Of a stretch of DNA of 64,000 nucleotides, positions 13,599 to 58,583 are shown piece by piece. The position numbers were made by a program, and so were the translations under genes. Numbering within the stretch: the stretch's first letter is position 1; the number at the start of each line of letters is the position of its first letter. Below the pieces are notes generated by a model. It was given only the letters and a program-made list of their open reading frames with translations. It did not search any database and was not told the origin of the DNA. Source of the stretch: Enorma massiliensis phI (GTDB lineage: Bacteria > Actinomycetota > Coriobacteriia > Coriobacteriales > Coriobacteriaceae); contig NZ_HE978574.1 in NCBI RefSeq assembly GCF_000311845.1, positions 238,737 to 302,736 on the forward strand, in the 5' to 3' direction.

Positions 13599-13763
13599 GT
13601 ATCCAAATGTGCGCTAAGTCGGTCTTTGATCCTGCGAAAACATGGGTGACGATTCTTCACATGCCTGGTAGACGGGCCATGGCACATGCTTCTACCAGCG
13701 CGGTGGACAATTCGCACGGAAGAAATGCAGGAAAAAAGACCGACTTAGCGCAAATTTGGATAC
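13599..13763. repeat. Long inverted-repeat element (37-bp arms, 165 bp)
   Basis: The left arm 13599-13635 (GTATCCAAATGTGCGCTAAG...) and the right arm 13727-13763 are reverse complements with three mismatches. The 91-bp interior contains a smaller inverted repeat, CTGGTAGA/TCTACCAG. No protein reading frame of interest lies inside. It fills most of the 369-base gap between recQ and the oxidoreductase gene. The shape fits a MITE-like element or a structured RNA. The rest of the gap shows nothing clear. Confidence 0.85.
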
Positions 13764-15152: not shown

Positions 15153-15333
15153 TTTTGTGGCAGTTATTTCAGATATGAACGATTGTCCGGCGTACGAGGC
15201 TACAAAAGCAGCCCTTCAATGGGATGCAGGCTTTCGAATCCTGCGCTTTTGTTGCCAGCTGTCTGTCCAAGGCAGTGCAGCGCCTCCCTCTTTGCCGCGT
15301 GAATCGTTCACATCTGAAATAACTGCCACAAAA
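15153..15333. repeat. Long inverted-repeat element (32-bp arms, 181 bp)
   Basis: The left arm at 15153-15184 (TTTTGTGGCAGTTATTTCAG...) and the right arm at 15302-15333 are reverse complements with one mismatch. The interior can fold further: ACAAAAGC pairs with GCTTTTGT around a GCAGG/CCTGC hairpin. It lies 140 bases upstream of metA. I see no match to a known methionine-related riboswitch. It occupies the centre of a 430-base gap. Confidence 0.85.
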
Positions 15334-16450: not shown

Positions 16451-16637
16451 GGGCAAGAAACGGATAAAAAGAGGGGGCATTAAAAACACGTTCCTTCCGT
16501 TTCCTGCCCATGTTCCACAACAGGACCGGGGGCGAGCCGCTCGAGAGGGCGCGCCCTGCCTCGTCGATGCGAAAGCGTCGCATAACTCGACGGTGAAGCT
16601 TGAATTTGCCCTTCACCTGCGAGTTACGCGACGCTTT
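16451..16637. repeat. Two inverted repeats in the metA-M16 gap
   Basis: Arms GGGCAAGAAACGGA (16451-16464) and TCCGTTTCCTGCCC (16496-16509) pair with one mismatch. Further on, 27-base arms at 16572-16598 and 16611-16637 (AAAGCGTCGCATAACTCGAC... against its complement, three mismatches) form a 66-base hairpin. The two lie tail-to-tail between the convergent metA and M16 genes, so either could act in transcription termination, but neither has a clear T-run. The remaining ~100 bases up to 16740 hold two copies of CGGGCGCTGGGG-like sequence and nothing else obvious. Confidence 0.7.
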
Positions 16638-16740
16638 TCTGAGGCAGATGGTCAGTTTCTTTGCCTGGGCGCTGGGGGGGTAAAGTACCCGGCGCCTTAT
16701 CCGGGCGCTGGGGAGACGGAGCGCCCGTCGCCTGCCTCCG

Positions 16741-35327: not shown

Positions 35328-35472
35328 AAGTTCGAGGCTCGAGTCGGAAGGTTTTTGCGGATTTTCCGAGTAGCCACCCGTTTTCGGGAGCTGTTTCCTG
35401 CGGTTTTGTTGCCCGGGAGGGCGGGTCTACTCGGCGTTTCCCGAAAAACCTTCCGACTCGAGCCGCGAACTT
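35328..35472. repeat. 145-bp palindromic repeat flanking the DUF559 gene, left copy
   Basis: The arms are 35328-35356 (AAGTTCGAGGCTCGAGTCGG...) and 35444-35472, with one mismatch over 29 bases. The interior contains GTTTCCTGCGGTTTTGTT. The same element, in opposite orientation as judged by its interior, is at 36858-37000. The following ~280 bases up to the gene are clearly AT-richer than the surroundings and hold no convincing gene. Confidence 0.9.
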
Positions 35473-35753
35473 TTTTGATGTTGTGTGAGTTGGTGTTCTA
35501 TCGGAGTGTTGTCACGGCGTGTGCGAGGCGGGCGCTGCTGCCTGAGGTGCTGTCTAGGTTGTTTGTGGCGCATTATTTATGATGTAAATTGAATATATGG
35601 GACTGTCTACCCATGATTGTTTGCCATTTAGTGCATAGATAGCGCAGTGGCCATGTTCTGCGTGTTCAAGTTTTGGCCAGCAGTTTGTCAGCTGGAGCGG
35701 CAATATGTTGGGCACAGACCCAAGCAGGTTGGCGTTGCGGTTATGGTTTGAAC

Positions 35754-36818
35754 ATGAATATCGTGTTGTCACATAGCTCCGCATTCCGCTACTACCGCAC
35801 ACCGCCCGTGGTGTTGGCGCTGTACGGCGATTGCTACGGTATCGATGTGTCGCGGGAGCGTCGCCGTGCGCTCAGAGGTTCGGGTTCATTCGGCCCCCTT
35901 GACATACCGATTCACGTGCTCGTTCGCAGCAAGACTCATGTGAAGGCGACAAAAACTTGCATACCGCATATTTGGTCCGGTGAGATTGCCCCTGGAATGA
36001 TTCGCGCTACCGATCTAGGCTTTGCGGTCACATCGCCTGTGCTCACGATGCTGTGTCTTGCCGCAATGTCGCCTGTTGCACAGGTAACCATGATGCTCTA
36101 TGAGCTGATGGGATTGTTCGCGGTGTACCGTGCGCGCCATGGCGAGCGGGAGTACCTGCAGAAGCTCGTCGATACAGGCTCATTTCCTATCATCGATGGG
36201 TGGAAGCCGATGCTGGACAATAACGGGAACATTACCGATTTATGGGACCGACCTCCCCTCATTACCATCGATGAAGTCCAGCGCTTTTGCGATCAGTTTC
36301 GAGGCATGCGCGGCATTGGCCGGCTTCGCCAAGCTCTTGATGACGTATGGGGTGTGGCGCGCTCGCCGTTCGAGGTGCAGGCGGCAATGCTGCTTGGTCT
36401 TCCGAGGCGGAGGGGTGGCTACGGATTTGGCAGCTTTGAACTGAATAAAGCTATACGGCTTTCGGATGCGGCGCGCGCTATAGCGCGCCAACAGACGTGT
36501 TGCATCGATTTGTATGCAGAGGGGCCAGAGGGTCTCCCGCCCATAGCCATTGAATGTCAAGGAGCAGGTTATCACGGTGGGTCAGAGCGGAATGCAATGG
36601 ACGATAACCGAGCGCTGGCGTTGCAAAGTATGGGTTTAACGGTGGTGCGCTTACGATACGAGCAGATTGCCGATCCCTGGCGGCTTCAGCAGGTTGCAAG
36701 CTTTCTGCTGGGAAAACACGGGCGAGTGTGGGCACCAAAAACGGAGCGTCTCGAGCAGAAGGAGCGAGAACTGCGCGCCGACGTGCTCACGGATTGGTGG
36801 CGGCTTGGTTCTGCCTGA
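35754..36818 (+). CDS. DUF559/Vsr-like putative endonuclease with an N-terminal regulator-like region
   Basis: This 354-residue protein starts MNIVLSHSSAFRYYRTPPVV. The N-terminal ~250 residues resemble the AbiEi-like region that often precedes DUF559 domains in Actinobacteria. The C-terminal ~110 residues carry a PD-(D/E)XK-type core: IDLYAEG, then IAIECQGAGYHGG, then MDDNRALALQSMGLTVVRL. The acidic residues Asp, Glu (in IECQ) and Asp are in place, with Gln instead of Lys. No strong ribosome site precedes ATG 35754. The upstream AT-rich stretch and the flanking inverted repeats suggest acquisition as a unit. Function is unproven: nuclease, or abortive-infection/antitoxin-like. Confidence 0.6.
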   Translation: MNIVLSHSSAFRYYRTPPVVLALYGDCYGIDVSRERRRALRGSGSFGPLDIPIHVLVRSKTHVKATKTCIPHIWSGEIAPGMIRATDLGFAVTSPVLTMLCLAAMSPVAQVTMMLYELMGLFAVYRARHGEREYLQKLVDTGSFPIIDGWKPMLDNNGNITDLWDRPPLITIDEVQRFCDQFRGMRGIGRLRQALDDVWGVARSPFEVQAAMLLGLPRRRGGYGFGSFELNKAIRLSDAARAIARQQTCCIDLYAEGPEGLPPIAIECQGAGYHGGSERNAMDDNRALALQSMGLTVVRLRYEQIADPWRLQQVASFLLGKHGRVWAPKTERLEQKERELRADVLTDWWRLGSA

Positions 36819-36857
36819 TTATGGGGGCTCACGCTTGCCGGGAGAGACGGGGCGGAA

Positions 36858-37000
36858 AAGTTCAAGGCTCGAGTCGGAAGGTTTTTCGGGATCGGTGAGT
36901 AGACCGGTCTTGGGAGGTAACAAAACCGCAGGAAACAACTCCCGAAAACAGTTGTCTACTTGGAAGGTTGGCAAAAAACTTCCGACTCGAGCCTCGAACT
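36858..37000. repeat. 143-bp palindromic repeat flanking the DUF559 gene, right copy (reversed)
   Basis: The left arm begins AAGTTCAAGGCTCGAGTCGG at 36858 and the right arm ends CGAGCCTCGAACT at 37000. The interior carries AACAAAACCGCAGGAAAC, the reverse complement of the left copy's interior, so the copies face each other. The remaining ~200 bases to the pyk terminator show no gene. Confidence 0.9.
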
Positions 37001-37198: not shown

Positions 37199-37230
37199 AA
37201 AAGGGCCGCAGGCATGCCTGCGGCCCTTTG
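37199..37230 (-). terminator. Terminator of pyk
   Basis: On the minus strand, AAGGGCCGCAGGC pairs perfectly with GCCTGCGGCCCTT and is followed by TTCGTATG. It lies 38 bases past the pyk stop. Confidence 0.8.
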
Positions 37231-58381: not shown

Positions 58382-58583
58382 AGCCGATCTTGGCTAAAAA
58401 TGTCGATTTATGGCGCTCGGTGTCGCGGGGATAGCGATGGATGCTGCGGTTTGGAGCCAATCTCCTGAGCTTTATTGATGCTTTTGCGGCTTTTTGCTGG
58501 TTCAAGGGGCGATCGGACTGCATAGTGTGGGCTACGCTGCCATTCCCAGCGCCATAAATCGACATTTTTAGCCAGAATCGGCT
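58382..58583. repeat. Long inverted-repeat element (35-bp arms, 202 bp)
   Basis: The left arm 58382-58416 (AGCCGATCTTGGCTAAAAAT...) and the right arm 58549-58583 differ at two positions over 35 bases. The 132-bp interior is AT-richer and holds no gene. It fills the metG-rsmA gap. Its arm core CCATAAATCGACATTTTTAG is similar to CGATAAATGGACGTTTTGG near 39083. The rest of the 375-base gap shows nothing. Confidence 0.88.

Follow-up and report, generated by a model that had tools for sequence, protein, structure and literature searches.

We asked whether a nuclease-type gene that lies between two facing palindromic elements is a self-contained mobile unit, or whether gene and palindromes belong to a wider partnership. 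The locus was analysed within a window of 64,000 nucleotides from a Coriobacteriaceae genome of 2.28 Mb (G000). A search of genome contigs with a six-member alignment gave five named relatives, the nearest being Collinsella massiliensis and Collinsella sp. An2. We observed that the layout given in a preliminary description of this DNA, a single gene between two facing palindromes with an AT-rich stretch before it, is real, and its features are as follows.

35331-35469, + strand: palindrome P1, 139 bp
35331-35356 and 35444-35469: outer stems of P1
35368-35373, 35397 onwards and 35427-35432: GAGTAG box, core CCTGCGGTTTTG and CTACTC box of P1
35470-35753, + strand: interval between P1 and the gene, presumed leader or promoter region, 284 bp, 49% GC compared to 61% for the window
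35754-36818, + strand: gene for an MTES_1575/DUF559-type PD-(D/E)XK protein, 354 amino acids
35754-36008, + strand: N-terminal ~85 residues, the most variable part of the protein
36354-36713, + strand: PD-(D/E)XK nuclease domain, residues about 201-320
36861-36998, - strand: palindrome P2, 138 bp, in opposite orientation to P1
36897-36902, 36922-36932 and 36956-36961: GAGTAG box, core AAAACCGCAGG and CTACTT box of P2

Each of P1 and P2 is an interrupted palindrome by itself, and the two match in inverted orientation with 83-84% identity across about 146 bp (E about 1e-38). Their predicted folding energies of −91 and −69 kcal/mol correspond to z-scores of −9.4 and −7.8 against dinucleotide shuffles. 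The best start of the gene is the ATG at 35754; the TTG at 35673 proposed by the ORF tool has no support among relatives. The gene sits between pyk and a phospholipase-like (PLPC) gene, as do its homologues in several genera. Separate from the long palindromes, a perfect hairpin with 15-bp arms lies 3' of pyk (37200-37229) and is likely an ordinary terminator. An Rfam scan of the window returned two tRNAs only and no palindrome match above the gathering score.

The protein is recognizable as a nuclease of the kind first proposed, though its matches fall below the curated Pfam cut-offs. The PD-(D/E)XK domain occupies the last ~150 residues and matches MTES_1575 (PF18741) with E 6e-6, at 26.7 of the 38.2 bits needed, and DUF559 (PF04480) marginally, with E 0.09 at 13.1 of 20.6 bits. 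The C-terminal catalytic domain is thus what it has in common with these Vsr-like families. In an alignment of 26 relatives D252 and E267 are invariant and Q269 nearly so; the motif falls on the expected strands, with Q269 replacing the lysine. An AlphaFold model built on six sequences only has a mean pLDDT of 71.8; it is confident for the nuclease domain (82-91 at residues 201-270) and poor at residues 8-52. Fold matches of the catalytic domain, to TnsA, I-Bth0305I and Holliday-junction resolvases, are all weak. For I-Bth0305I the sequence match has E 0.3 and the fold match a TM of 0.57 of the target over 74 columns, with E 0.6-1.2. Pfam scans found no HUH/Y1 transposase domain in the protein, which is therefore not a RAYT, and no match for its N-terminal part. 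No PADLOC defence model matched it, the paralogues matched only weakly, and a phage search gave no match. Mean pairwise identity is 30% in the N-terminal 85 residues compared to 39% elsewhere, and we infer that this segment is a candidate reader of the palindrome stem. The gene as a whole evolves fast, since within a genus the protein is only 47-48% identical where the flanking pyk is 88-92% identical.

The palindrome also occurs away from this unit. About 13 copies are dispersed through the genome, two of them beside the focal gene; a closed cassette of gene and repeats is thus too simple a picture. Ten solo copies were inspected and are intergenic by a crude ORF call, in which 78 bp of one copy (L005) fall within a predicted ORF and another (L007) overlaps a short one. 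A DNA search of 66 other genomes of the bacterial family found zero copies. Nor was a focal-family palindrome found at the orthologous sites of five other species, of which four are sister species and one belongs to another genus; one such site, in G004, has a 72-bp hairpin instead. With both flanks aligned, the intergenic gap at these palindrome-free sites is shorter; the difference ranges from 44 to more than 350 bp and is usually 130-280 bp. The sister species that lack the focal copies also lack the focal stem type, and the insertion junctions at their sites are too diverged for a target-site duplication to be read. The window also holds solo palindromes of four other families, none with an assigned strand.

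13601-13760: solo palindrome of a further family with seven genomic copies
15153-15333: solo copy of the family adjoining paralogue L036 (C1:169203)
16572-16641: solo copy of the short family flanking paralogue L033 (C2:125577)
58383-58582: solo copy of the family flanking paralogue L035 (C1:231293)

No nuclease or DUF559-type gene was found within about 1.5 kb of any of the seven copies of the first family, which is perhaps an orphan set left after loss of its nuclease.

The focal genome has six paralogues of the gene, and a palindrome adjoins every one of them (6/6), each of a different family. The copy numbers of these families are about 13, 5, 6, 1, 8 and 6; five of the six have further copies elsewhere, and that of L034 is a single copy. 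For a wider comparison, 31 nuclease-family loci from the focal and other genomes were picked by protein similarity only and then scanned for palindromes (20-bp arms, at most 2 mismatches, 40-200-bp loops). We counted 32 long palindromes in the 37 kb within 600 bp of the gene, compared to 12 in the remaining 534 kb, a descriptive difference in density of ~38 times. Of the 31 genes, 27 have a palindrome within 600 bp, with a stem that differs by lineage. Locus and genome counts are not independent because the genomes are related. The palindrome may be upstream, downstream or on both sides of the gene, and inverted or direct. Two inverted flanking palindromes occur at the focal locus and in G065; G004 has a direct pair, and other genomes have a palindrome on one side only. 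The G004 pair (L037; 1332-1471 and 2807-2946) is 91% identical, closer than dispersed copies usually are, which suggests local duplication or gene conversion. Among MTES_1575 proteins of other Actinomycetota, the palindrome link was absent in the 20 loci sampled, with gene limits approximated. Dispersed copies of the cognate type go with presence of the gene, with two exceptions: the L034 family is a single copy, and solo copies can outlast the gene. The case that had been named as fatal, repeats spread over the genome independently of DUF559 genes, is true in its first half only, for the tie to the gene exists. Together, these data suggest a previously undescribed partnership of protein and palindrome that resembles REP-RAYT pairs.

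The palindromes share an internal architecture. All eleven full focal copies are 138-139 bp long; conservation is about 95% in the outer 26 bp, near-random in the spacers next to them, and evident again at the GAGTAG/CTACTC box and the centre CCTGCGGTTTTG. Overall the palindromes are 60-210 bp long, mostly 120-150 bp; their outer stems vary by lineage, but a CTACTC box in the interior and, at the centre, an asymmetric core (AAAACCGCAGGT-like) are shared. Over 24 stem types, the box scores 280 compared to 212-218 for shuffled sequences and the core 264 compared to 190-200, and the core lies at most 3 bp from the middle of the palindrome in 22 of the 24. Members of the longer family beside the distant paralogue L036 also hold CCTGCGGTTTTGTG or a similar sequence, as judged by eye.

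Stem and protein have changed together in one case. G042 (L163) departs from its near-identical neighbours in two places, the palindrome arms and the N-terminal ~80 residues of the protein, whose other ~270 residues are nearly identical to theirs. One recombination event, or linkage alone, could explain this change, because the arms and the 5' end of the gene are adjacent on the DNA. Conversion of the solo copies in G042 to the new stem was considered and rejected, as they are still of the old type. The type of the gene now at pyk and that of the solo copies can disagree: in G013 the nuclease is of type A and the solos at sites S1 and S2 are of type B.

The solo copies themselves are long-lived. 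Close Collinsella species inherit them at the same sites. Hypermutable spacers were ruled out, since spacers at orthologous sites evolve like the flanks or slower. Site S1 carries stem type A or B depending on the species, around the same core, and in G034 (L237) it is a hybrid whose left arm is of type B and whose right arm is of type A, with the common core between them. This copy looks as if two types had recombined. In two species, G022 (L200) and G010 (L202), a type B and a type A solo palindrome stand side by side at the same site. Deletions were present in 7 of 13 readable S1 sites, some of them at short repeats. A hand count of stem mutations after nuclease loss gave about 6 compared to 2 (ten copies each), which is not significant. 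Because sites are inherited, S1 shows types A, B and hybrid, and deletions affect 7/13 of its readable copies, we conclude that most solo elements are old and have kept their stems intact, and that they can switch type in place and decay by deletion. MITEs are likewise short non-coding inverted-repeat elements dispersed between genes, but this history is not that of recently spreading MITEs; here, no target duplications were found, and randomized spacers go with preserved stems, box, core and length.

Such conservation could also be expected if the protein were a DNA-binding regulator or a chromosome-organizing factor, with the palindromes as immobile, host-selected operator-like sites and the nuclease fold used weakly or for repair. 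The age, intergenic position and vertical inheritance of the dispersed copies fit this explanation, as do their rigid length and constrained stems, box and core. AbiEi antitoxins are DNA-binding proteins that bind inverted repeats (PMC7319586), and one paralogue has a very weak AbiEi match (E 0.03); the focal protein has no such match and has a nuclease domain. However, the catalytic residues are invariant or nearly so, and the palindromes can stand upstream or downstream of the nuclease gene, while their usual place with respect to other genes is downstream and away from promoters. Sister species also switch stem type and miss each other's set, which would be unusual for a host regulon. We consider a regulator unlikely.

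Inspection of the pyk locus in 64 genomes bears on whether the nuclease and the palindromes depend on each other. The nuclease gene is present in 28 of them, two with an interrupted copy, and a palindrome of at least 116 bp is adjacent in 28/28 of these sites. No palindrome of 100 bp or more was found at the 21 resolvable gene-less sites, two of which have hairpins of 80-87 bp. If the palindromes were moved by another enzyme, for example a RAYT or an IS200-like transposase, the nuclease genes would be passengers or preferred neighbours. The majority of palindromes are indeed gene-free and non-coding, and the GAGTAG box inside them is reminiscent of the GTAG tag that REPs carry (PMC3733652). 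This perfect co-occurrence at pyk and the distinct family for each nuclease paralogue are, however, hard to explain by passengers, and we regard action of another enzyme as improbable.

The same locus informs the history of the gene. In g3 Collinsella, gene-less pyk sites retain the last codons of the nuclease gene and are therefore deletion losses; the empty sites in sister strains that might have represented pre-insertion sites are, in close Collinsella, of this kind. Both orientations of the gene, and subfamilies that differ deeply, are found at pyk, and the tree, which has some long branches, requires seven switches between pyk and a location elsewhere, at least 4 of them on well supported branches. 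Hence the gene does change site and orientation over long times. No target-site duplication, and no clean insertion with one, was found among the copies compared. Given this, and the same pyk-PLPC site in many relatives, the single-gene mobile cassette of the preliminary description stays a supposition. A circular Collinsella aerofaciens record of 1785 bp (NZ_OY725722.1; L305) was rejected as an excision circle: it has no palindrome and its nuclease gene is truncated N-terminally. It places this truncated family member beside an apparent fragment of a transposase-like reading frame and is possibly an assembly artefact.

Recurrence of the gene at one site, in both orientations, as deep subfamilies and with these site changes, would also suit a homing-type selfish gene that cuts gene-less sites and is copied in by repair, the palindromes being its landing sites. 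The homing endonuclease I-Bth0305I (E 0.3) and Tn7 TnsA are among the nearest solved catalytic domains. These structural matches are weak and not significant, though, and the focal gene has no intron, intein or transposon context. Moreover, the near empty sites are decayed genes, and no homing target is left at pyk because none of the 21 gene-less sites carries a palindrome; solo sites elsewhere could still serve as targets. A homing gene therefore seems to us about as doubtful as transport by another enzyme. Finally, although the hairpins are strong and some lie between convergent genes, it is very hard to believe that they serve as ordinary terminators or arose as structural by-products beside foreign genes, because they share internal motifs (core and box), are 60-210 bp long, repeat their stems genome-wide and are 38-fold enriched near the gene, and because the ordinary 30-bp terminator-like hairpin at 37200-37229 stands apart from them.

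The likeness to REP-RAYT systems, noted at the outset, has strong support: every paralogue is matched by a separate palindrome family, dozens of relatives show the association again, and in one case arms and N-terminus have changed jointly. PMC2817692 and PMC8266576 describe for RAYTs and REPs flanking palindromes, co-evolution, rapid evolution of the gene and dispersed copies tied to it. What is reported there of REP-RAYT systems ("REPtrons", TnpA-REP) is paralleled here by one gene with cognate palindromes beside it and dispersed extragenic copies, by joint diversification of enzyme and palindrome, and by a gene that evolves faster than its neighbours. The differences are also clear. The enzyme is of the PD-(D/E)XK type, whereas a RAYT is an HUH protein; most of the elements measure 120-210 bp and contain box and core, whereas REPs are 20-40 bp; copies number 1-13, compared to over 100 for REPs; and the gene is not always flanked on both sides. 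Compared to MTES_1575 and DUF559 proteins, the family is set apart by its sub-cut-off matches and by a palindrome link that the sampled relatives in other Actinomycetota lack.

On balance, we favour the reading that nuclease and palindromes are partners, the focal gene supplying the dedicated enzyme, in a system that follows REP-RAYT logic although its enzyme is unrelated, and we hold it with some confidence. The protein, probably a dimer, would read both arms of its own palindrome type through the variable N-terminal region, and the conserved C-terminal PD-(D/E)XK domain would act at or near the invariant asymmetric core in the palindrome centre. Cutting or nicking, followed by repair in trans, might then produce dispersed intergenic copies in each lineage over long times. 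Enzyme and stem would co-diversify quickly, giving a private palindrome family for each lineage and each paralogue, as for RAYTs and REPs. Binding, dimerization, cleavage, mobilization and spread caused by the enzyme are all proposed here from sequence, with which palindromes that are mobilized, cut, protected or simply bound would agree. The outcome may be selfish or useful to the host.

In the open-access literature, to which the search was confined, we found no report of DUF559 or similar nucleases with palindromes. We give roughly even chances to the broader proposal that this is a new kind of element: a PD-(D/E)XK nuclease that recognizes and propagates or polices private long palindromes with a universal asymmetric core, its swappable N-terminal specificity matched to swappable stems, as a REP-RAYT analogue that arose independently from a restriction-type nuclease. 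If confirmed, REP-RAYT-like palindrome spreading would have had more than one origin, a restriction-type nuclease taking the place of the HUH transposase. The match between N-terminus and stem would provide a natural series of sequence-specific palindrome-reading proteins. Confirmation would also give a function to a branch of an uncharacterized nuclease family that has up to ten copies per actinobacterial genome, and would account for the long hairpins scattered in Collinsella-like gut bacteria.
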